A stretch of DNA of 41,423 nt. Source: Actinomycetota bacterium (GTDB lineage: Bacteria > Actinomycetota > Coriobacteriia > Anaerosomatales > Anaerosomataceae). Both the position numbers and the translations under genes were made by a program. Every line of letters starts with the position of its first letter. Position 1 is the first letter of the stretch. The notes below the pieces were generated by a model. It saw only the letters and a program-made list of their open reading frames with translations, was not told the origin of the DNA and did not search any database. The stretch is from the NCBI GenBank assembly GCA_009773565.1, contig WSXY01000014.1, positions 1 through 41,423 of the forward strand, read 5' to 3'. Of the stretch, positions 30,975-41,068 are shown piece after piece.

Positions 30975-32147
30975 CTACAGCATCTGCTCGACGAACGCCT
31001 CGATTCGGGTTCTCAGCTGGCCTTCATCAGCTGCGGAGTAGTCCGTCTCGATCTTGAGACACGGGACGTTGAGTTCCTCTCGGCAGGCACGCTGGACGAT
31101 GACCGACTCAACGTTGAACGTATGGCACGCCTGCCACACTGTATCGATCACGCCTTCGACGCCGTACGTCGAGACGCTGCTCCGGAGCAAGTCGACCCGA
31201 CCGTCATTCGGGCTCATGCACGCGCACGGGATGTAGAGCGTGTATCGGGTGAGCGCGTCGAGTGGGTCGCCCTCCTCGTCAACGAGCCTGTCGAACATCT
31301 TGGTGCCGCTGCATGCGTCATGCGCGACCACGAGCGCCCCCGACTCCTCGGCAATGCGCATGACCTTGTTCGTCTCGGGAGACATCGGCGAACCGGTGAC
31401 GAGAACGCGCGGCATACGGCCAGACGTCGACGCATCACCGACGGCCGCATCGGCCACAGAAACCGCCTCGGCGAGTTCCTCGATGAGCGCGAGATACGGT
31501 GCCCGGTCGACGACGAAGTCGGTGAGCGAGCGCACCGACAACATCTGGGTCCACGTAAGGGACGGTACTGGACGCTCGAAAGTACGCACGATGCGCTGGA
31601 GCACGCGCCGGAGCTCGTTCTCGTAGTAGATCTCGGCCGAGAGCCGTTCGGGGGTCGGCTCGATGCCTGTGACGCCCACGAGAAACTCAGAGACACGCTT
31701 CATCTCGCTGCGCCACTGGTCAAGCGCGCCCGGAGCGTTCTTGTCGTACGGCAATTGCATGACGTGCACAGGACGAAGCCGGGCAAGTAACTCGAAGACC
31801 TTCTTCTTCCCGTCGCACGTCGTCTCACCGATGAGCGCGTCGGCGAAGTGGAAGAACGGGCAGGTGTCGGTAATGGCGAGCCCATAGCTTGACTTGATGA
31901 GCGGGCAGAAGTTCCGCGGCAGCTCCAGCTCGGCGCTCGGAATCGCATCCGCGTCGCTACCGCACAAGGAGACCGGTATTGCACCCACGGCGCGAACGAG
32001 TTCGAACGGGATGTAGCCACAATACAGGCCAATGACCTTGAGGCCGGATTCCTTGGCCTCTTTGAAGCGGATCTGTGCCCACTCAAGACGCTGATCGACC
32101 TCTGCGAGAATCTCACCGATTGTGCGACCCACGTGTCCTCTTCTCAT
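30975..32147 (-). CDS. 2-hydroxyacyl-CoA dehydratase/benzoyl-CoA reductase-type (HgdB-like) protein, second copy
   Basis: The 390-residue protein belongs to the HgdB/BcrB/double-cubane family of iron-sulfur proteins that take electrons from an ATP-driven activase. Five N-terminal Cys have the same spacing (19, 19, 15, 15) as in the paralogue at 39734: Cys43 (YCGYIP), 62, 81 (FCPLIKSS), 96 and 111 (GETTCDGKKK). Later Cys occur in DACSG, PCACMSPNDGR and QACHTFN. No partner alpha subunit follows, so it may act alone like double-cubane proteins. Start: ATG 32147 or GTG 32132 (behind AGAGGA). It lies beyond a hairpin at 32213-32245 after the SAO-like operon. Confidence 0.85.
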   Translation of the reverse strand: MRRGHVGRTIGEILAEVDQRLEWAQIRFKEAKESGLKVIGLYCGYIPFELVRAVGAIPVSLCGSDADAIPSAELELPRNFCPLIKSSYGLAITDTCPFFHFADALIGETTCDGKKKVFELLARLRPVHVMQLPYDKNAPGALDQWRSEMKRVSEFLVGVTGIEPTPERLSAEIYYENELRRVLQRIVRTFERPVPSLTWTQMLSVRSLTDFVVDRAPYLALIEELAEAVSVADAAVGDASTSGRMPRVLVTGSPMSPETNKVMRIAEESGALVVAHDACSGTKMFDRLVDEEGDPLDALTRYTLYIPCACMSPNDGRVDLLRSSVSTYGVEGVIDTVWQACHTFNVESVIVQRACREELNVPCLKIETDYSAADEGQLRTRIEAFVEQML

Positions 32148-32212
32148 CGACGCAGTCAGGCTTTTGGAGCGACCGCTGCACAAGTCTATCGCACCCTGCG
32201 TGACCGGGCGCA

Positions 32213-32245
32213 GCGGTGGGCGCGCGGCGTCCGCGCACCCACCGC
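32213..32245 (-). terminator. Strong hairpin between the DsrE-like and second HgdB-like genes
   Basis: Two 15-base arms (GCGGTGGGCGCGCGG / CCGCGCACCCACCGC) with one mismatch and a 3-base loop lie 12 bases after the DsrE-like stop. No U-tract follows, so termination may be partial or Rho-assisted; RNA processing is another option. Confidence 0.6.
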
Positions 32246-32256
32246 CAGCCGTCTTC

Positions 32257-32589
32257 CTAGAGCGTGATGACCTGATCCGGAGCGGCGGGGCCGAGTGCGG
32301 CGTACAGATCGGGGAAGCACCCGATACCGGCGCCCGGAATGAGCTTGTCGGCGATGTGGCGCTCATACGCGCACTGGTCGCACGCCATCAGCAGCATGCC
32401 TGTCTTCTCCTGGAGTGCCTGCAGCTTGCGGCCCGTCTCGGTGCCATCGAGCAGGAAGAACGTGTTGTCGACAAAGAAGAACATACCGAGGACGTCAACG
32501 CCGTGCCTGCCTTCTTCCATCTGCGGGATAATCATGGTGTCAAGGATCTTCTGACTCGTGGTCGTGGCAAATACGTACGCTACTTTCAT
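32257..32589 (-). CDS. saoD: DsrE-like small protein of the SAO cassette (SaoD-like)
   Basis: The 110-residue protein has the DsrE/DsrF-like alpha/beta fold: VAYVFATTTSQKILDTMIIPQ, HGVDVLGMFFFVDNTFFLL, GMLLMACDQCAYERHIADKLIPGAGIGCFPDLYAAL. The Cys70-x2-Cys73 pair and Cys91 could carry sulfur, selenium or a metal. ATG at 32589 with GAAGGGAAGG upstream; the longer frame is not homologous. It follows the IscU-like gene by 31 bases. The Sao name is given by gene order and from memory of that family. Confidence 0.75.
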   Translation of the reverse strand: MKVAYVFATTTSQKILDTMIIPQMEEGRHGVDVLGMFFFVDNTFFLLDGTETGRKLQALQEKTGMLLMACDQCAYERHIADKLIPGAGIGCFPDLYAALGPAAPDQVITL

Positions 32590-32620: not shown

Positions 32621-32980
32621 TCATGAGGCCGCGGCTGCATCTGCAAGCGCGCGACGTAGAACCTCCACAGCCAATTTGCACCGGCCCATTCGCCTCGCGG
32701 GAATCCCGCCGACGACCACGGCAACATCATCTGCAGTGATCGCACGTGCTTCGTTGACCGGAAGACCGGTCGCCATCTCGGTCAACGCGCTACAGCACGC
32801 GACCGCGACCACGCACGTCGTTGAGCGGAAGCGAGCCACCTCGACCAGGCCACCCGAAATGCGGACGCTCATCCGAACGGTGACCCAATCGAGCGAGAGC
32901 TCGGTCGAACCATCGCACGGCTCGACATCGCCGACATTCCGGGGTTCGTGGAAGTGGGAGAGCATACGGGAGGTGTACAT
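32621..32980 (-). CDS. Degenerate IscU/NifU-like scaffold protein
   Basis: The 119-residue protein matches the N-terminal IscU/NifU fold: MYTSRMLSHFHEPRNVGDVE, then FRSTTCVVAVACCSALTEMATGL, ITADDVAVVVGGIPARRM and CKLAVEVLRRAL. The first cluster Cys (the N-x-x-CGD motif) is missing, replaced by STELSLD. Cys56 and Cys101 remain at the second and third ligand positions, and Cys62-Cys63 form an extra pair. It may therefore carry metal or selenium/sulfur in a different way from true scaffolds. It starts 16 bases after the selenoprotein gene's TAG, so it is a cassette member by position. The ribosome site is weak. Confidence 0.75.
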   Translation of the reverse strand: MYTSRMLSHFHEPRNVGDVEPCDGSTELSLDWVTVRMSVRISGGLVEVARFRSTTCVVAVACCSALTEMATGLPVNEARAITADDVAVVVGGIPARRMGRCKLAVEVLRRALADAAAAS

Positions 32981-32996
32981 CACGCACCGCCAGACG

Positions 32997-33644
32997 CTAC
33001 GCCGAGAAGAGCCACTCCGCGACGACGATCGCCTCGGCAACGGGCAGAATGAACAGGTCCTCGGCAGAGTGACCTCTCGCCTCGGCCCATTCCTCGAAGT
33101 GCGCCTTCGCACAGAAGGCGTTCATGTCGTTTCAACAGCTACCCGCCCAGTTCTCCTGCACGTTCAAGTCCGCGTGCACCACGTGAAGACCCGCAGGCTC
33201 GACGTCTACGACCTCGCCGTCGCGGACGACGACACGAATCGGCGTACGGCACCGATGGCAGGAGGTCGCTACTTCGATGTCCTGGCGGAAGGTGAACGCG
33301 CTTCCGAGAGCGTCGATCGCGCACATGGCGTGGAACGCACGTCCATCCGCAAGCGAAACGCGATGTGCCGTCGGCATGGCGGACACGGGATACGAGACCC
33401 GGATAGCGCCATCATCACCGGCTACGACGACGTTCTTCTCGGCCAATGACGCGGTCAGCGAGCGCGCGACCTCGGTTCCCACGCCGAGTCGACCCGCGAC
33501 ACTATCAGGATGCACGATACCGCCACGGTCGATGATCGCGTTCATGATCGCGAATCGCATCGCGCGCTCGTCCGGGGTGCACCGCGAGTCGATGCTGGAG
33601 ATGCGGAGGCGCTCCTCAGGGTAGTCGGTGAATCGTCCGGTCAT
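32997..33644 (-). CDS. saoL: MerB-like organometal lyase, selenoprotein (SaoL-like, UGA = Sec171)
   Basis: The 215-residue protein is read through an in-frame TGA at 33134-33132. The family model is organomercurial lyase MerB, which cleaves carbon-metal bonds using Cys96, Asp99 and Cys159. Here C108-A-I-D111 matches Cys96-Asp99, Cys129 and Cys132 lie in ATSCHRCRTP, VVDVEPAGLHV matches AVEPAGMAV, and Cys170-Sec171 takes the place of the Cys159-Cys160 pair. After the TGA the frame stays open for 44 codons, with MerB-like NAFCAKAHFEEWAEARGHSAEDL and VAEAIVVAEW, ending in TAG. Total length equals MerB (about 212). A SECIS-like hairpin follows the TGA. ATG at 33644 overlaps the ABC ATPase stop. 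Confidence 0.88.
33103..33134 (-). promoter_or_regulatory. Sec UGA codon and bacterial SECIS-like hairpin
   Basis: On the minus strand the TGA (33134-33132) is followed after 12 bases by GCCTTC-TGTGC-GAAGGC, a perfect 6-bp stem with a 5-base loop. The loop begins 18 bases after the UGA and has G at its second position, both as expected for a bacterial SECIS element bound by SelB. Confidence 0.8.
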
Positions 33645-34405
33645 GGGCGCTCACCGTCCACGAATGCCTGCTGGAGCAGATCGATGAGCTGGTCCTCGTA
33701 CTGGTGGTAGATCTCGCCTCGGCGTTCGCGCGGCCGGGGAAGGTCGATCGGGAGGTCCGCCATGATGCGCCCGCCGTGCCCCGACATCACGATGACGCGG
33801 TCGGACATGTAGATTGCCTCCTGGACGTCGTGCGTAACCATGAGGACGGTGGTGCGATTCTTCAACCAGAGTCGCTCCATCTCCTCTTGCATCATGAGTC
33901 GCATCTGAAAGTCGACGGCACCGAACGGCTCGTCCATGAGCAGTACTTGTGGTCGCCCTGCAAGCGCGCGTACGACTGCCGTGCGTTGCTTCATCCCACC
34001 TGAGAGTTGGTGCGGGTAGAGATGCCCTTTGCCGTCAAGACGGGCCATGCTTAGAAGGTCGTCCAGACGCTTCTCCCGCTCGTCCTTCGGCACGCCTTGA
34101 CGCTTCATCGGATAGCGCACGTTGTCCGCAAGAGACATCCAGGGAAAGAGCGCGTAGCTCTGGAAGATGAATCCCCTGTCGGGTCCGGGCTTCGACACCT
34201 CGCGCTCCGCGACCCGGATGGTGCCCCGATCGGCCGCAATGAACCCGGCGACGATGTTAAGGAGCGTCGTCTTGCCACATCCCGACGGCCCCAGGAGCGT
34301 AACGTACTGACCCTCGCCGACGGTAAGGCTCACGTCAGAGAGCACGGTGTGCGGAGCGCCCGCGTTCGCATACTGCTTGTGGATGCCTCGGACTTCCAGC
34401 TTCAC
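33641..34405 (-). CDS. ABC transporter ATPase (nitrate/sulfonate/taurine type) of the SAO cassette
   Basis: The 254-residue ATPase is of the SsuB/TauB/NrtD class. Walker A is GPSGCGKTT, the Q-loop is in FIFQSYALFPWMSL, the signature is LSGGMKQR, Walker B is VLLMDEPFGAVD and the H-loop is VTHDVQEA. It powers uptake with the permease and the two binding lipoproteins encoded upstream. GTG at 34405 overlaps the permease stop (GTGA). Its stop overlaps the MerB-like gene's ATG, tying import directly to cleavage. Confidence 0.92.
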   Translation of the reverse strand: MKLEVRGIHKQYANAGAPHTVLSDVSLTVGEGQYVTLLGPSGCGKTTLLNIVAGFIAADRGTIRVAEREVSKPGPDRGFIFQSYALFPWMSLADNVRYPMKRQGVPKDEREKRLDDLLSMARLDGKGHLYPHQLSGGMKQRTAVVRALAGRPQVLLMDEPFGAVDFQMRLMMQEEMERLWLKNRTTVLMVTHDVQEAIYMSDRVIVMSGHGGRIMADLPIDLPRPRERRGEIYHQYEDQLIDLLQQAFVDGERP

Positions 34406-35229
34406 TCGGCAAACCTCCACTTCGCGAGCGAGTGGTTGAGCTTGATGAGCCCGCGGTCGATTGTGAAGCCGACCAAGGCCGCCATCAGCATCAATGCCAT
34501 GAGCGTGCCGGTTTCAAGCTGCGTCTGGGCGCGTACCATCACGTACCCGAAGCCGGCGCTCGTGGCGATGAACTCTGCGCAGATGACGGATCCCCAGCCA
34601 GCTCCCAGCGCCAGTCTGGCGCCGGTGATGATATCCGGCACGGTTGCCGGCAGGATTACGTTGGTGAGTATCTGAAGACGCCCCGCTCCCATGCTGCGAG
34701 CGGCGTCATAGTAGTCCTTCGGAATCGAACGGACGCCGGCAATCGTGCTCAGAATGACGGCGAACACGCCCACGAACGCGATGATGAAGATCGTCGGCCC
34801 ATCACCAAGGCCGAACCACACGATCGACAGCGGAACCCACGCCATGATCGGAATCTGACGCAGCGTATTGATGAGTGGATCGATGACCGCGCTGGCGCGC
34901 TGCGAATAGCCCATAAGGTATCCGAGCGGCACACCGATGAGCATCGCGATGCTGAAGCCGATGAGGACCCGCTTGATCGTGATTCCCATATTGAGCAGGA
35001 TCTCCGGGTCGCGGACAGCTCTCCACAAGGCCGCAAGCGCGTCGAGCGGTGGCGGCATAAGCAAGACGCTGTCGTATGAGTACGCCGCGAACTGCCAGAT
35101 CGCGAACACGATCGCTATCGACAGCAGCCACCACCACGACCTCTTGCGGCCACCCCCGAGAACCCGGGTGCCGTCTAGAATCTCGCGGTCTCTGACACGT
35201 GCAGCAGCCGAACCCTCAGAGTCTGCCAT
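34402..35229 (-). CDS. saoP: ABC transporter permease of the SAO cassette (SaoP-like)
   Basis: The 275-residue inner-membrane protein has about six helices and the SsuC/TauC-type layout: WWWLLSIAIVFAIWQFAAY at the start, MLIGVPLGYLMGY, PIMAWVPLSIVWFGLGDGPTIFIIAFVGVF, and a coupling loop DYYDAARSMGAGRLQILTNVILPATVPDIITGARLALGAGW. The ATG at 35229 overlaps the end of the binding-protein gene by 55 bases, but GAGGAGGTGGAGGA directly before it supports this start. It ends in a four-base overlap with the ATPase. Confidence 0.9.
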   Translation of the reverse strand: MADSEGSAAARVRDREILDGTRVLGGGRKRSWWWLLSIAIVFAIWQFAAYSYDSVLLMPPPLDALAALWRAVRDPEILLNMGITIKRVLIGFSIAMLIGVPLGYLMGYSQRASAVIDPLINTLRQIPIMAWVPLSIVWFGLGDGPTIFIIAFVGVFAVILSTIAGVRSIPKDYYDAARSMGAGRLQILTNVILPATVPDIITGARLALGAGWGSVICAEFIATSAGFGYVMVRAQTQLETGTLMALMLMAALVGFTIDRGLIKLNHSLAKWRFAE

Positions 35230-35984
35230 TCCTCCACCTCCTCTGCCGTCACTGAACGTCCCGTTGCGCGTGATGCTTCTTCGCCGAACACCGCCGGATC
35301 ATTAAGCGCTTCGGCAGCCCTTCCAAGCAGGTCGATGGCCATGCTATAGCGCTCCGAGCCGAGCAGGTCCTCACGCGCGACCAACACGTACGTCACGCGA
35401 TCTCCCTGTGCCGGAGCCGACGGTCGACGGTCTCCGGGCACGGACAGCGCCTTGACCGCATCGATCACGATCCCGTCCACGATGCCCTTCTCGAGCGCGT
35501 AGGGCAGGCTCGTCGTCATCATCGGGACGACAGTCGCCTCAGAGCCGACGACTTCTCTCACAATGTCCAACTGGTAGGACCGGTTCTGGGTGACTCCCAT
35601 GCGCGCGACAATCGCTCCCGATCGCGTGACAACGACATCCGAGTTCTCGATCAGCGGACCAATGACCACGAACCGGCGATCCTTGCTCACGAGATCCGCT
35701 GCCGCACCAGGGCACAGCACCGCCAGGTCGAGCGAGTCCGATGACAGCGCGTATTGCGAATTCGTCGAGCAGCAGTCCCTGAGTCCATACACTTCAAGCC
35801 CGTCATCCGTGCGCTGCAGGTTGGTCGGAGCGAGGCGCACCGCTCTATCAACCAGCATCCCGGCGATATCGTCAGGAGCCCCGATTCGCACTGAACCGCC
35901 GCAACCCGCGGGCTGGACCGGCGTACACGCCGCCGATCCAGCCCCGAGCGCAACGATCAGTATCACGGTCGCGATCAGTTTCAC
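35175..35984 (-). CDS. saoB: Substrate-binding lipoprotein with Cys-Cys pair (SaoB-like)
   Basis: The 269-residue lipoprotein has a signal peptide with lipobox-like GSAAC (Cys20). The mature part looks like a diverged periplasmic binding protein of the NMT1/SsuA type (VRIGAPDDIAGMLVDRAVRLAP, LDLAVLCPGAAADLVSKD, GIVDGIVIDAVKAL). Cys71-Cys72 in GLRDCCSTNSQYAL is a vicinal pair of the sort that I recall being Cys-Sec in related SaoB proteins; here both are Cys codons (no UGA). It may hold a soft metal or organometal. It follows the second binding-protein gene by 26 bases. Confidence 0.75.
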   Translation of the reverse strand: MKLIATVILIVALGAGSAACTPVQPAGCGGSVRIGAPDDIAGMLVDRAVRLAPTNLQRTDDGLEVYGLRDCCSTNSQYALSSDSLDLAVLCPGAAADLVSKDRRFVVIGPLIENSDVVVTRSGAIVARMGVTQNRSYQLDIVREVVGSEATVVPMMTTSLPYALEKGIVDGIVIDAVKALSVPGDRRPSAPAQGDRVTYVLVAREDLLGSERYSMAIDLLGRAAEALNDPAVFGEEASRATGRSVTAEEVEEWQTLRVRLLHVSETARF

Positions 35985-36010: not shown

Positions 36011-37102
36011 CTAGGCGCCGATCGCCTTGAGCCAGTCCTCATACGTCATGCCGAGCGGATACTTCGGATCCACGTTCTCCTTGATGAAGGTGTCGAAATC
36101 CTTGGTGCCCGCCGCGTCGAGCGTGGAGCTGTCGAGCCACTCGGCAATCGGTGGAACATCGATGGGCACGACCGACTTCGCGTAGTCGAACTCGGCCTTG
36201 AAGCGCTCCGGCTCGATCTTCCACGTGAGCGTGCGACCGTCCTTGTTGGTCTTCATGTAGATGGTGCGAAGGGCGACCTTCTCGTCGATGCCCTTCTCCT
36301 TGGCGAAGATCTTCGCTGCCTCGAGCGGGTTCTCGTAGATGTACTGCACCGCCAGGGAGTGCGCCAGAATCATCTTCTTGGCGAGCTCAGGATGTTCCTT
36401 CTGGAACTTGCGGTTCATCGAGTACACGCAGCACGAGCCGTACTCGCCGTTGGGGAGCTTGGCTTCTGTCGGGACGATCTTGCCCGAACCGTCCAGATCC
36501 GATGCCGAGCACCACGGGTCGCAGTCGACAAAGCCGTCGAGCTGTCCGTTCTTCACGGCGATGTAGGCGTCACTGCCACCAATAGCCGTCGCCTTGTACG
36601 AGGCCGGGCTGGCAGGGATGCCGGCGTCGGCCGCCATACGGACCCAGTAGGAATCATTCTTGTCCGCATCCGGCGCTATGCCGAACCGCTTGCCCACGAG
36701 GTCCTTCACGTCCTTGAGCTTCGACGAGATGACGATGTAGAACGAGCCGCCGAGGTGGTTGTTCGCCGCGACGAAGATCGGCGAACCTTTGGCCTCGGCG
36801 CGTACGACACCCTCGGTGCCGACATAGCCGACGTCCATCTTCCCAGCCGCCATAGCCTCGGGGACGTTGCCGCCGCCAACCGAGTTGACCTTGATGCCGA
36901 GCTTGTCGTAGATGCCAGCGTCGCGCGCCACCGCCGCGGCCACCATGTGGTCGCAACCGTAGTAGCCAAGCTGGACGACGTAGTTCATGTCTTCAGTCGG
37001 GGTCGTCCCTTCCGTGGTGGGCTTCTTGTCAGCCGACGCGCACCCCGCCAGCGCCACAGCCAACATCCCGATAACCAAGATCAGTGCCGTCAACCTCCGC
37101 AT
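36011..37102 (-). CDS. saoX: ABC substrate-binding lipoprotein (SaoX-like)
   Basis: The 363-residue protein has a lipoprotein signal (LAVALAGC, Cys21) and an NMT1/SsuA-like binding fold: VVQLGYYGCDHMVAAAVARDAGIYDKLGIKVNSVGGGN, KMDVGYVGTEGVVRAEAKG, and DLVGKRFGIAPDA. Cys residues are unusual for this family and lie where ligand could bind: Cys50, Cys194 and Cys198 (DCDPWCSA) and the vicinal pair Cys224-Cys225 (GSCCVYSM). This suggests a thiophilic ligand. GAGGAGGAACGT precedes the ATG. An 80-base gap separates it from the upstream lipoprotein gene. Confidence 0.82.
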   Translation of the reverse strand: MRRLTALILVIGMLAVALAGCASADKKPTTEGTTPTEDMNYVVQLGYYGCDHMVAAAVARDAGIYDKLGIKVNSVGGGNVPEAMAAGKMDVGYVGTEGVVRAEAKGSPIFVAANNHLGGSFYIVISSKLKDVKDLVGKRFGIAPDADKNDSYWVRMAADAGIPASPASYKATAIGGSDAYIAVKNGQLDGFVDCDPWCSASDLDGSGKIVPTEAKLPNGEYGSCCVYSMNRKFQKEHPELAKKMILAHSLAVQYIYENPLEAAKIFAKEKGIDEKVALRTIYMKTNKDGRTLTWKIEPERFKAEFDYAKSVVPIDVPPIAEWLDSSTLDAAGTKDFDTFIKENVDPKYPLGMTYEDWLKAIGA

Positions 37103-37182: not shown

Positions 37183-37626
37183 CTATCTACCGCAGCAGTT
37201 CGCCATGCCACTATCGAACACGTCGACAAGCTGGTCGCCTTCGACGCGGTAGACCGCATATCCGACTGCACCGTTCTTCGAGCCGCGCACGATGACCTCG
37301 ACCGGTTGCTTGTCGTCGATGTCGCGCAGTTGGACAGCCTGTGCCTCGACAGGCGCCTTGAACTCATTCGTGACTGTCGCGCTACCTTCGTGCGACAACA
37401 GGGCGCGCGTGCGGAAGGTGCCCTCCGCCGTGCGGTAAACGACGGCAAGATCTTGCGTCCCGTCGGCATCTATGTCGCCGCTCCGCGCAGAGATCACGGT
37501 CGTGCCCGGTACGGCCTCCTCAAACGCGTGCACGAGTGTCGCGTCCGCCGCCGGCGCCGACGTCGACGCACACCCGCCTACCAGAAACGTACAGACCGCA
37601 GCCGTAGCAAACAAAAGCAGCCTCAT
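37183..37626 (-). CDS. saoC: Lipoprotein with C-terminal Cys-Cys (SaoC-like)
   Basis: The 147-residue product has a lipoprotein signal with VGGC (Cys19). The body is beta-rich with an integrin/VCBS-like GDIDADGTQDLAVVYRT segment and VQLRDIDDKQPVEVIVRGSKNGAVGYAVY. It ends NCCGR, so Cys144-Cys145 lie two residues from the carboxyl end. I recall a Cys-Cys-COOH (seleno)protein SaoC from SAO cassettes; here both are Cys codons. It could accept metal outside the membrane or shuttle electrons. The ATG overlaps the permease stop. Confidence 0.75.
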   Translation of the reverse strand: MRLLLFATAAVCTFLVGGCASTSAPAADATLVHAFEEAVPGTTVISARSGDIDADGTQDLAVVYRTAEGTFRTRALLSHEGSATVTNEFKAPVEAQAVQLRDIDDKQPVEVIVRGSKNGAVGYAVYRVEGDQLVDVFDSGMANCCGR

Positions 37627-38711
37627 GCCTCCGCCCGCCTCAGACGGGCGAGCGCTGCGGGAGCGTTCGAGGCCCAGGAATACGCCGCGAGTCCAATGAT
37701 CACGGCCGCGCAGACGTATTGCGCGAACTCGGGAATCCCCTCCAACGCAAGCCCGCTCGCGACCCGCAGGGCCAGGGTCGCACCGGAGGTGTCGAAGACG
37801 GGCGTGAACCCGCTTCCCAGCACAGCGTTCGCGAAGAGCCCCACAGCGAAGGCGCCCGTCACCATGCAGCCCACGTAGATGAGAACCGAGCGTCGGCCCA
37901 TCAGCTTCCAGATGCTCACCAGTTCTGGGATGTTGGTGCCGACACCCGCCATGAGGAACGTGATCGCCAGCCCCGGAGCCGCTCCGGCGGCGACAAGCGC
38001 GGCGGTGAGCGGGATGTGGCCCACCGCGCACACATGCATCACGCCGCCGAGCGCTGCAGCGGCGCCAATCGAAAGCACCCCGGGATTGCCCAGGTAGGAC
38101 TGGATGAAGGCGTCGGGCACGAGCGCGATGATCCCGCCCGCCAGGAGCATGCCGACCAGCGCGTAGCGACTCATCATCGCGCCCAGCTCCAGGAAGCCCC
38201 AGCGCTGACCCGCCAGCACCCGCCGGGGAAACGGCTCGCGCCGCACGGCCGCCCGGGCCTCGACCGCCGACTCGGGGACGTCCATCTTGAGCTCCGGACC
38301 GCCAAACCGGTTACCCGCGACCCCGACGGCGATCGACACAAGGAAGCCCCCTAATGCGTAGATGGTCGCAATCTTGGGACCGAGTAACGCGTATGCGAGA
38401 ATCAGAGCGGCGGGGTTGATGATCGGGGCGGCGGTCATGAACGCCAGAGTCGGCCCCAGGTACGCGCCGGAGTAGTAGAGACTCAGGCCGATTGGGATGA
38501 TGCCGCAGCTGCAGAGCGGCAGCATCATGCCGGAGAACGCAGCCTTGAAGAGTGTGCTGATACGTCGGTTGCCGAGGACACGCTGGAGCCCGACTGGGTC
38601 GGCGAACGAATGGACGAGGCCTGCCAGCACGAAGCTCATGACGAGCCACACCGAGGCGCCCGCAAGAATCGCGAACGCTGTAGCGAGAACGTCTTTGGCG
38701 ACGGCGAGCAC
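37623..38711 (-). CDS. saoE: DUF318/ArsP-type permease (SaoE-like efflux protein)
   Basis: The 362-residue protein has about eight to ten membrane helices and belongs to the permease family PF03773, which includes ArsP (organoarsenical efflux). Conserved family features are LPLCSCGIIPIGLSLYYSGAYLGPTLAFMTAAPIINPAA, with Cys67 and Cys69 in the CSCG motif, and VMHVCAVGHIPLTAALVAAGAAPGLAITFLMAGVGTNIPEL. Export of the metal released after cleavage of an organometal is the natural inference. GTG at 38711 overlaps the thioredoxin-like gene's TAG by one base. Confidence 0.85.
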   Translation of the reverse strand: MLAVAKDVLATAFAILAGASVWLVMSFVLAGLVHSFADPVGLQRVLGNRRISTLFKAAFSGMMLPLCSCGIIPIGLSLYYSGAYLGPTLAFMTAAPIINPAALILAYALLGPKIATIYALGGFLVSIAVGVAGNRFGGPELKMDVPESAVEARAAVRREPFPRRVLAGQRWGFLELGAMMSRYALVGMLLAGGIIALVPDAFIQSYLGNPGVLSIGAAAALGGVMHVCAVGHIPLTAALVAAGAAPGLAITFLMAGVGTNIPELVSIWKLMGRRSVLIYVGCMVTGAFAVGLFANAVLGSGFTPVFDTSGATLALRVASGLALEGIPEFAQYVCAAVIIGLAAYSWASNAPAALARLRRAEA

Positions 38712-38977
38712 TATGCCTCCGCCATCGCTTCGGCTACGGCGCGTTCAATGACACCACGGCTGGGCTCCTCGTAGCGCACGGTCTCGTTCACTATCAGCGT
38801 CCCGCGGGTGATCACACCGTAGCGGCGCACATAGTCGAAGTCCTTGCCGGCCACGTAGAAGCGCGTCTCGACCGCATCACCGTACTGCGCCGCTACATCG
38901 CGGACGTCGCGCTCGTGACCCGCGCAATGCGGGCACGTGTTCACGAATTCCAGAAGTACCTTCGCCACCCTGGCCAC
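38711..38977 (-). CDS. saoT: Thioredoxin-like protein (SaoT-like)
   Basis: The 88-residue thioredoxin-fold protein has the redox motif Cys15-P-H-Cys18 (VNTCPHCAG), then FYVAGKDFDYVRRYGVITRGTLIVNETVRYEEPSRGVIERAV, including the region before the cis-Pro strand. In SAO cassettes I recall this protein sometimes having Sec; here both residues are Cys codons. GTG at 38977 directly follows the activase stop and has GGAGG five bases upstream. Confidence 0.82.
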   Translation of the reverse strand: MARVAKVLLEFVNTCPHCAGHERDVRDVAAQYGDAVETRFYVAGKDFDYVRRYGVITRGTLIVNETVRYEEPSRGVIERAVAEAMAEA

Positions 38978-39730
38978 CTACGCCTCCGACCGTGCCGCGC
39001 ACAACGCAGCTCCGAACGCTCCGACAGTCTGAGCCTCAGCGGGGACGAGCACCGCACCGTCGAAGCCCTTTGCGACCAACTCGACCATCGCCGGGTTCTT
39101 GGCCACGCCCCCAGCGAAGACCAGCGGTCCCTTCGCGCCAATGCGACGCAGCGAGCCGAGCGTGCGAGTCACAATTGACTCATGAAGGCCGCGAGCGATG
39201 CGCCCTCGGTCTTCGCCGCGGTGGACGAGGCCCGTGACTTCGCTCTCGGCGAAGACGGTGCACATCGACGAGATGACGACCCCGGACTTGGCGGCGAGGG
39301 CAGCTGCGGCCATTTCCTCGAGTGTGAAACCGAGCGCCCGTGCCATGACTTCAAGGAACTTACCTGTCCCGGCGGCGCATTTATCGTTCATCTCAAAGTC
39401 GGTGACTTTACCGGCAGACCCGAGTGAGATCACTTTGGTGTCCTGCCCACCGATATCGAGCACCGAGGCGACGTCGGGGTGCAGTGCCGCAGCACCGATG
39501 CCGTATGCGGTAATCTCGGTGATGGCCGTGCCGCCAAAACGCTCGCGCGCAGCATGACGACCGTACCCGGTAGAGACGATCGCATCATGCGCGCCTCGAT
39601 CGACAAATATGGCGGCGGCCGACCCGGGGTCGAATCCCGAGTCGGCCACCGCCCAATCAACAATCCGGCCGTCGTCGAGCCAGACGGCATCTACACTGCG
39701 CGAACCGATGTCGAGGCCGAGAACACGCAT
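38978..39730 (-). CDS. HgdC/BcrAD-type ATP-dependent activase
   Basis: The 250-residue ASKHA-fold protein is of the 2-hydroxyacyl-CoA dehydratase activator family. It couples ATP hydrolysis to low-potential electron transfer. It shows LGLDIGSRSVDAVWLD (phosphate loop), VLDIGGQDTKVISL, and the two cluster Cys, Cys118 in NDKCAAGTGKF and Cys157 in SSMCTVFAESEV, that bind one [4Fe-4S] across the dimer. It is three bases downstream of an HgdB-like gene, its obvious partner, and joined to the thioredoxin-like gene. Confidence 0.92.
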   Translation of the reverse strand: MRVLGLDIGSRSVDAVWLDDGRIVDWAVADSGFDPGSAAAIFVDRGAHDAIVSTGYGRHAARERFGGTAITEITAYGIGAAALHPDVASVLDIGGQDTKVISLGSAGKVTDFEMNDKCAAGTGKFLEVMARALGFTLEEMAAAALAAKSGVVISSMCTVFAESEVTGLVHRGEDRGRIARGLHESIVTRTLGSLRRIGAKGPLVFAGGVAKNPAMVELVAKGFDGAVLVPAEAQTVGAFGAALCAARSEA

Positions 39731-39733
39731 CCT

Positions 39734-41014
39734 CTACAGCATCTCCAGGAATGCTTCAACGCGCGTCGAAAGCTGGCCGACATCCTCGGCCGAGTAATCG
39801 GTGTCGATGCTCAGCACAGGGAGGCCTGCGTCGTGGACCGTCTTCTGGACCGCGGTCGACTCGATCTGATAGGTCCCGCAGAACTGCAGCGAATAGTCGA
39901 TCACACCGTCAGCCTTGAGATTCCTCGCCATACGCACGACGTCGTCGAGTCGACCCTCGTTGGGAGTGAAGCATGCGCAGTTGATGTCGAGGTACTTCGC
40001 CGCAAGATCGTCGAGCATCTCGTCCAGCGTGGACGCATCCTCGTTCACGAGCTTCTCGAAGTAGCGAGAACCGGTGCACATCTCTTCGCCGACAACGACG
40101 CCGCCGGCCGTCTCCACGATCTGGTGCAGCTTCCAGTTAGGCAGCGCCATGGGCGTTCCTGTGATCAGAACGCGCTTGGCACCCGTCGGCGCGACACCGA
40201 CACCGTCCGCGACGCGCGCCTCAAGCTCGTCGGCGAGCGCATTCATCATCTGCGTGAAGCGTGGCACATCGTCATAGAAGGCGACCTGCACCGCGAGAAG
40301 GGAGTCGAGACCGGAGATTGGCGCAGGGTCGGCCGCACGCGCGGCATTGACACGCTGCAATGCCCTGCGCTTGTCGTTTACCTCCTTGATGGATGCCTTC
40401 AGCGACTCGGCGGTGACCTTCTTACCGGTGAGTGCCTCGAGCTTCGCAATGAGGTCGACGAGCTCGCTGCGCCAGAACGCCACGTCCTTGGCCCGCTTCA
40501 TCTGCGGCAGCTCCATGACGTACATGTTCTGCAACTTGCCAAGCTCCTCGTACGCCTTCTTCTTACCGTCGCACGTGGTCTCGCCGACGAGCAGATCGGC
40601 CTCTTCGAGATACGGGCAGACCTTGCCGAGCTTGAAGCCCATCATGGACTTGATGAGCGCGCAGGTGTTGCGCGGGAGAATCTGCTCGACCTGATCGTAG
40701 GCCCACTCGGCACCCGCACAGATGCCGACCGACCAGGCGCCCGCCGCCCGGATGAGCTCCTCGGGCACGTAGAGACAGTACGTTCCAACGACTTTTCCGC
40801 CCGACTTGCGGAAGTCGTCAAGTTCTTTGATGCGAAGGCCATGGACTTCGCTCATGACAAAGTCCAGGTAGCCCATACCCTCGGGGCGGTTGGCTTGCGT
40901 CATGAATGTCTGGCCGTACATGCCGCCGACTGCCTCGAGCAGCGCGTCATGCATGGGGAGATCGAGGCCGAGTTCGGCCCACATCGGACGGTAGTCAACA
41001 CCTTCGCCGGCCAT
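39734..41014 (-). CDS. 2-hydroxyacyl-CoA dehydratase-type (HgdB-like/double-cubane) protein, first copy
   Basis: The 426-residue iron-sulfur protein has family motifs VVGTYCLYVPEELIRAAGAW, PRNTCALIKSM, GETTCDGKKKAYEEL, INCACFTPNEGR and LQFCGTYQIES. Cys80, 99, 118, 133 and 148 have the same spacing as in the copy at 30975. No HgdA-type second subunit is present, so a homodimeric double-cubane-like reductase is likely; the substrate is unknown. ATG at 41014 was chosen over an upstream TTG because GGAG lies seven bases before it. It is the first gene of the long operon driven from the promoter at 41069-41097. Confidence 0.87.
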   Translation of the reverse strand: MAGEGVDYRPMWAELGLDLPMHDALLEAVGGMYGQTFMTQANRPEGMGYLDFVMSEVHGLRIKELDDFRKSGGKVVGTYCLYVPEELIRAAGAWSVGICAGAEWAYDQVEQILPRNTCALIKSMMGFKLGKVCPYLEEADLLVGETTCDGKKKAYEELGKLQNMYVMELPQMKRAKDVAFWRSELVDLIAKLEALTGKKVTAESLKASIKEVNDKRRALQRVNAARAADPAPISGLDSLLAVQVAFYDDVPRFTQMMNALADELEARVADGVGVAPTGAKRVLITGTPMALPNWKLHQIVETAGGVVVGEEMCTGSRYFEKLVNEDASTLDEMLDDLAAKYLDINCACFTPNEGRLDDVVRMARNLKADGVIDYSLQFCGTYQIESTAVQKTVHDAGLPVLSIDTDYSAEDVGQLSTRVEAFLEML

Positions 41015-41068
41015 CAGGGACTCCAATCAATCTCACCGTATCTGCGCTTATAGTTGTGTTGCATGTTT

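Follow-up and report, generated by a model that had tools for sequence, protein, structure and literature searches.

SaoL of an actinobacterial SAO locus, a MerB-fold protein with a predicted selenocysteine in place of the catalytic cysteine

A MerB-like gene of an uncultured, probably anaerobic actinobacterium contains an in-frame TGA, which raises the question of whether the protein ends at this codon or continues through a selenocysteine (Sec). The gene lies in the window, the whole stretch of 41,423 nucleotides analysed here (contig WSXY01000014.1). Its frame, on the minus strand, starts with ATG at 33644, runs for 170 codons to the TGA at 33134–33132, and continues for 44 codons to a TAG at 32999–32997. 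A preliminary description of this DNA had read the frame in the same way, with a MerB-like sequence beyond the TGA, and had proposed a “hidden” selenoprotein. The gene is hidden only from gene calling with translation table 11, since the SaoL family to which it belongs is itself curated and published. The features concerned are as follows.

32997–33644, minus strand: saoL, predicted MerB-like organometallic lyase of 215 residues, with the UGA read as Sec at residue 171 (NF040728, Pfam MerB)
33132–33134, minus strand: in-frame TGA, codon 171, predicted Sec, aligned with the MerB catalytic Cys159 (alignments; TGA in 20 of 20 SaoL loci)
33000–33131, minus strand: 44-codon tail of saoL 3′ of the UGA, constrained at the protein level as the head is (Pfam MerB, dN/dS)
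33102–33120, minus strand: candidate SECIS hairpin of the bacterial type, with a stem of 7 bp (CGCCTTC/GAAGGCG) and the loop TGTGC, 11 nt past the TGA (geometry, covariation)

If the TGA were a plain stop, as table-11 calling has it, the product would have 170 residues and the tail would be left-over coding sequence. The open frame of the tail was rejected as evidence for Sec, because in 39% of simulations a stretch of 44 random codons at 64% G+C had no stop; the case rests instead on homology and conservation. The 170-residue head alone matched Pfam MerB at model positions 2–73 (72.7 bits) and the 44-residue tail alone at positions 87–125 (E 0.0019), while the read-through protein gave one match over positions 2–125 (106.6 bits against a cut-off of 27; E 1.1e-30), with the register kept on both sides of the TGA. 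The MerB-like character claimed for the tail was thus borne out by the Pfam model.

The gene was compared across 20 SaoL loci, namely the window and 19 named loci of a public genome set, among which four genomes of the same class recur. The loci come from Actinomycetota, from Firmicutes (among them Tissierella, Clostridioides difficile, and Lachnospiraceae), and from Desulfobacteraceae, Desulfuromonas, Desulfatitalea, and Syntrophobacteraceae, and thereby from at least three phyla; several are strains of one species, which leaves about a dozen independent lineages. The relatives are 35–54% identical to the window protein. In all 20 loci, the TGA occupies the same codon and is followed by an N-x-M-N-x-F motif and the conserved MerB tail, whereas the preliminary description had named a lack of conservation downstream of the UGA as the ground on which its claim should be given up. 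The dN/dS of the tail (about 0.31–0.55, from a dN of 0.31–0.45 and a dS of 0.74–1.08) was similar to that of the head (0.25–0.43). A MerB-like tail under purifying selection, behind a TGA in every locus, argues against a plain stop, as does the loss of the catalytic position that such a stop would entail; we regard this explanation as very improbable. A search of plasmids for relatives returned distant MerB proteins only: all 33 records were below 60% identity, and among the matches listed none exceeded 33.1%. A SaoL gene with TGA in Desulfatitalea (L061:8001-8615) has no SAO transporter genes within 8 kb, and its upstream neighbor encodes a VTT-domain plus FeS/CCG protein.

In bacterial SECIS elements, the apical loop lies 16–37 nt downstream of the UGA, and a G occupies one of the first two loop positions. 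The preliminary description had noted a 6-bp hairpin with G at the second loop position behind the TGA of saoL; we confirmed this hairpin and found one further pair, giving a perfect 7-bp stem (33120–33114 paired with 33108–33102) after a spacer of 11 nt. Its loop starts 19 nt past the UGA, within the SECIS range, and its G conforms to the bacterial pattern. Among the 1177 TGAs of the window, both strands counted, one is followed by the exact geometry, while a loose hairpin (6-bp stem, loop of 3–8, loop start 16–37 nt past the TGA) occurs at 2.8% of the window TGAs. In an alignment of 15 loci, four of the seven pairs showed changes on both sides, and 88.6% of the hairpin cells were paired, compared with 56–71% for slid partners; none of 500 shuffles reached this value. 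Phe176 and Lys181 of most relatives are both replaced by Ala in the window SaoL, and the stem pairing is retained. The saoL hairpins of Lachnospiraceae and Lagierella are incomplete or shifted, with the stem not intact at the window register. The folding energy of the hairpin was also considered as evidence and set aside, as it was by itself not significant (z −1.05). An Rfam scan of the window returned two tRNAs and no other match.

The source genome carries selA (605.3 bits), selB (379.7 bits), selD (370.6 bits), and a tRNA-Sec (anticodon TCA). These genes lie together within 12 kb of a single contig (C16), and the selD has its own in-frame TGA, in ..KAGUAAK... All four genes selA, selB, selC, and selD, which the preliminary description had proposed to look for, are therefore present.

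The residue encoded by the UGA was placed by alignment. With phmmer against MerB structures, S169 aligned with S157, C170 with F158, U171 with C159, and N172 with C160, and the C160S mutant entry 3f2g served as a marker for the register. In an alignment of 18 MerB-like sequences, columns 108 and 171 were the only invariant Cys columns; C108 corresponds to MerB Cys96 and D111 to Asp99, and both catalytic Cys positions and Asp111 are retained in all SaoL sequences. These alignments show the predicted Sec171 in the place of the MerB catalytic Cys159, with Cys170 as an extra neighboring thiol that is conserved in SaoL and not generally in MerB relatives. The preliminary description had assigned Cys159 to the Cys before the UGA and had regarded Sec as a substitute for the second Cys of a vicinal pair; both assignments have to be corrected, since the UGA codon itself falls on Cys159 and Cys170 is the added residue. 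Because the UGA is the catalytic position, a product ending there lacks the catalytic residue, which ordinary gene calling consequently loses. The same alignment bears on the proposal that the UGA is read, without selenium, as another amino acid, by insertion of Trp or by leaky readthrough. The column of residue 171 holds Cys, never Trp, in all non-Sec relatives, and the full Sec machinery, the in-frame UGA of SelD itself, and the covarying hairpin also speak against this proposal, to which we give hardly any credence. Judged from sequence, the decoding of UGA codon 171 of saoL as selenocysteine is supported by the conservation and the machinery, and the selenoprotein claim of the preliminary description stands: the Sec machinery is present, the TGA and the tail are conserved in all relatives read, and the hairpin covaries.

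The window protein scored 166.1 bits with the SaoL model NF040728, above the curated equivalog cut-off of 140, which bears out the link to SaoL suggested earlier. The match runs to the last model position (159/159), which corresponds to residue 170, directly before the UGA; from this end point we infer that NF040728 was built from proteins truncated at the same place. The scores with the NCBIfam MerB equivalogs were far below their cut-offs (70 of 193 bits and 54.5 of 200 bits), and SaoL is therefore not MerB proper. An AlphaFold model of SaoL (pLDDT 91.6) had mercury-bound MerB2 (5c17, TM 0.73) and MerB as its best matches among solved structures. Like MerB and MerB2 (PF03243; 3f0o, 5c17), SaoL thus has the MerB fold, with Cys108/Asp111 at Cys96/Asp99; unlike them, it has the predicted Sec for Cys159, the added Cys170, and SAO rather than mer-operon neighbors. 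An alkylmercury-lyase-like selenoprotein is listed in a 2022 review (PMC9312934), and in a 2026 review (PMC13188914), which cites Haft & Gwadz 2023, SaoL (NF040728) appears among the CU selenoproteins, along with a description of the SAO operon. The gene is therefore a member of a known family and not its first case; SaoL and its Sec-assisted gene cluster were previously described, and the window provides a further, unusually lean example.

The window holds the whole SAO locus, saoT-E-C-X-B-P-A-L, in which every partner scored above its curated NCBIfam cut-off. The partners and their neighbors are as follows.

30975–32366, minus strand: second double-cubane-cluster reductase, downstream of saoL (NF040772, 430.8 bits); the true start probably lies inside this ORF
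32621–32980, minus strand: NifU_N-like protein between saoL and the reductase, ATG at 32980 or 32965 (Pfam NifU_N; NCBIfam NifU below cut-off)
33641–34420, minus strand: saoA, ABC transporter ATP-binding protein (NF040729, 394 bits)
34402–35229, minus strand: saoP, ABC permease, with Cys217 at the site of a TGA in most relatives (NF040733, 369.7 bits)
35175–35984, minus strand: saoB, substrate-binding protein with Cys-Cys where Firmicutes have Cys-Sec (NF040727, 241 bits)
36011–37102, minus strand: saoX, substrate-binding protein, Cys form (NF040735, 434.9 bits)
37183–37626, minus strand: saoC, Cys form, with a Cys-Cys pair close to the C terminus (NF040734, 130.3 bits, scored on the longer ORF 37183–38031, within which this start was chosen)
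37623–38711, minus strand: saoE, efflux permease of the ArsP_1 family (NF040736, 426.2 bits; Pfam ArsP_1)
38711–38977, minus strand: saoT, thioredoxin-like protein, CPHC (Cys form) (NF040730, 121.5 bits)
38978–39730, minus strand: acyl-CoA dehydratase-type activase (ATPase), adjoining saoT (TIGR00241, 196.7 bits)
39734–41026, minus strand: double-cubane-cluster reductase, a conserved neighbor (NF040772, 488.5 bits)

As in C. difficile and the other SAO systems, the window SaoL has the CU motif and the same locus partners, and saoA lies directly upstream of saoL as in C. difficile. In contrast to those systems, the locus is actinobacterial, has a G+C content of 64%, and is flanked by double-cubane-cluster reductases and an activase; its SaoL is 35–41% identical to SaoL of Firmicutes. 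SaoT, SaoB, and SaoP also carry TGA in C. difficile, whereas SaoL is the sole TGA-bearing Sao protein in the window, as it is in the pair L057/L062.

The activase is kept beside SAO in four actinobacterial relatives. Double-cubane-cluster reductases occur beside or inside the SAO loci of four actinobacteria, a Tissierella, and a Syntrophobacteraceae (the window, L055, L056, L057, L062, L058, L063), in most of which the activase accompanies them, and the source genome has only three such reductase genes, two of which flank its SAO locus. A low-potential reductase may belong to the SAO pathway. A homologue of the NifU_N-like gene is found 5 kb downstream of saoL in L057/L062 and is absent from the other loci; a gene caller may extend this gene upstream to GTG 33112, across the saoL tail.

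From sequence and by analogy with MerB, we consider it highly probable that saoL encodes a MerB-fold selenoprotein of a complete SAO (Sec-assisted organometallic) locus, in which UGA171 is read as Sec and the lyase chemistry would resemble that of MerB. SelA, SelB, SelC, and SelD, aided by the hairpin 11 nt downstream, would insert Sec at UGA 171. Judging from the protein families, the ABC importer SaoX/B/P/A would bring the substrate in. Cys108 and the selenolate of Sec171 would then bind the metal of an organometal, for example R-Hg+. Delivery of a proton to the carbon by Asp111 would break the carbon–metal bond, and the Cys/Sec pair would keep the metal until its transfer to other thiols. 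Cys170 may assist in retaining the metal or passing it on, and the removal of a product would fall to the ArsP-like SaoE. Compared with a thiolate, a selenolate is the stronger ligand for soft metals, and at neutral pH it is ionised. The substrate may be something other than mercury; organoarsenicals remain candidates because SaoE is ArsP-like.

SaoL could instead be a selenoprotein that uses the MerB fold as a metal or metalloid carrier and not as a lyase, with Cys108, Cys170, and Sec171 taking cargo from the transporter and passing it on. The conservation of Cys170 beside Sec171 in SaoL would suit such a role, as would the similar CC/CU pairs in SaoB and SaoC, whose Sec, according to the review cited above, may be a metal ligand (PMC13188914). 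A mere carrier would, however, need neither both catalytic Cys positions nor Asp111, which all SaoL proteins keep, and we consider a carrier function unlikely relative to the MerB-like lyase.

The distribution of Sec among the Sao proteins is relevant to the selenium dependence of the pathway. SaoB, SaoP, and SaoT have TGA in some loci and Cys in others, and SaoX has TGA once. No Cys form of SaoL was found among the 20 loci; Cys codons at this position were the target of one search pattern, so that Cys forms were not selected against. The constancy of Sec in SaoL, against partners that alternate between Sec and Cys, is perhaps less known. Sec in SaoL at every locus read, while the partners drift, points to its predicted catalytic Sec as the reason why the SAO pathway depends on selenium. 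The known SAO loci are joined here by a lean actinobacterial one, where SaoL alone would need selenium.

Weaker matches of the phylum search yielded further MerB-like genes with TGA. In nine loci of other Actinomycetota (L028, L030, L031, L032, L033, L035, L042, L043, L046), MerB-domain genes have one TGA at the Cys159 position, preceded by Thr or Asn; they lie at about position 1500–2150 in each locus (198–869 in L032), and their hairpin is strongly conserved as CTCTTCC-GGTC-GGAAGAG or close variants. Two other genes, L044:83-1681 (minus strand) and L047:1456-3018 (plus strand), carry two TGAs each, one at the Cys96 and one at the Cys159 position, and are fused to an AAA ATPase. These two genes, from genomes G591 and G600, are 79% identical over the MerB part, and the changes between the TGAs number 5, 2, and 35 at the three codon positions; the third position dominates on both sides of each TGA, which places both TGAs inside coding sequence. 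Both genomes have selA. None of the curated NCBIfam models was passed by the five single- and double-TGA MerB-like proteins scanned. From these sequences it seems probable that selenoenzymes arose on the MerB fold on more than one occasion, with Sec where MerB has Cys159: in SaoL without exception, and in two actinobacterial families without a curated NCBIfam model, one with a single UGA after Thr or Asn and the other with UGAs at Cys96 and Cys159 and the AAA ATPase fusion. The double-UGA family, if true, would represent an organometal lyase whose two paired catalytic residues are both selenocysteines. One of the double-TGA genes lies beside prophage genes (terminase, capsid, integrase).
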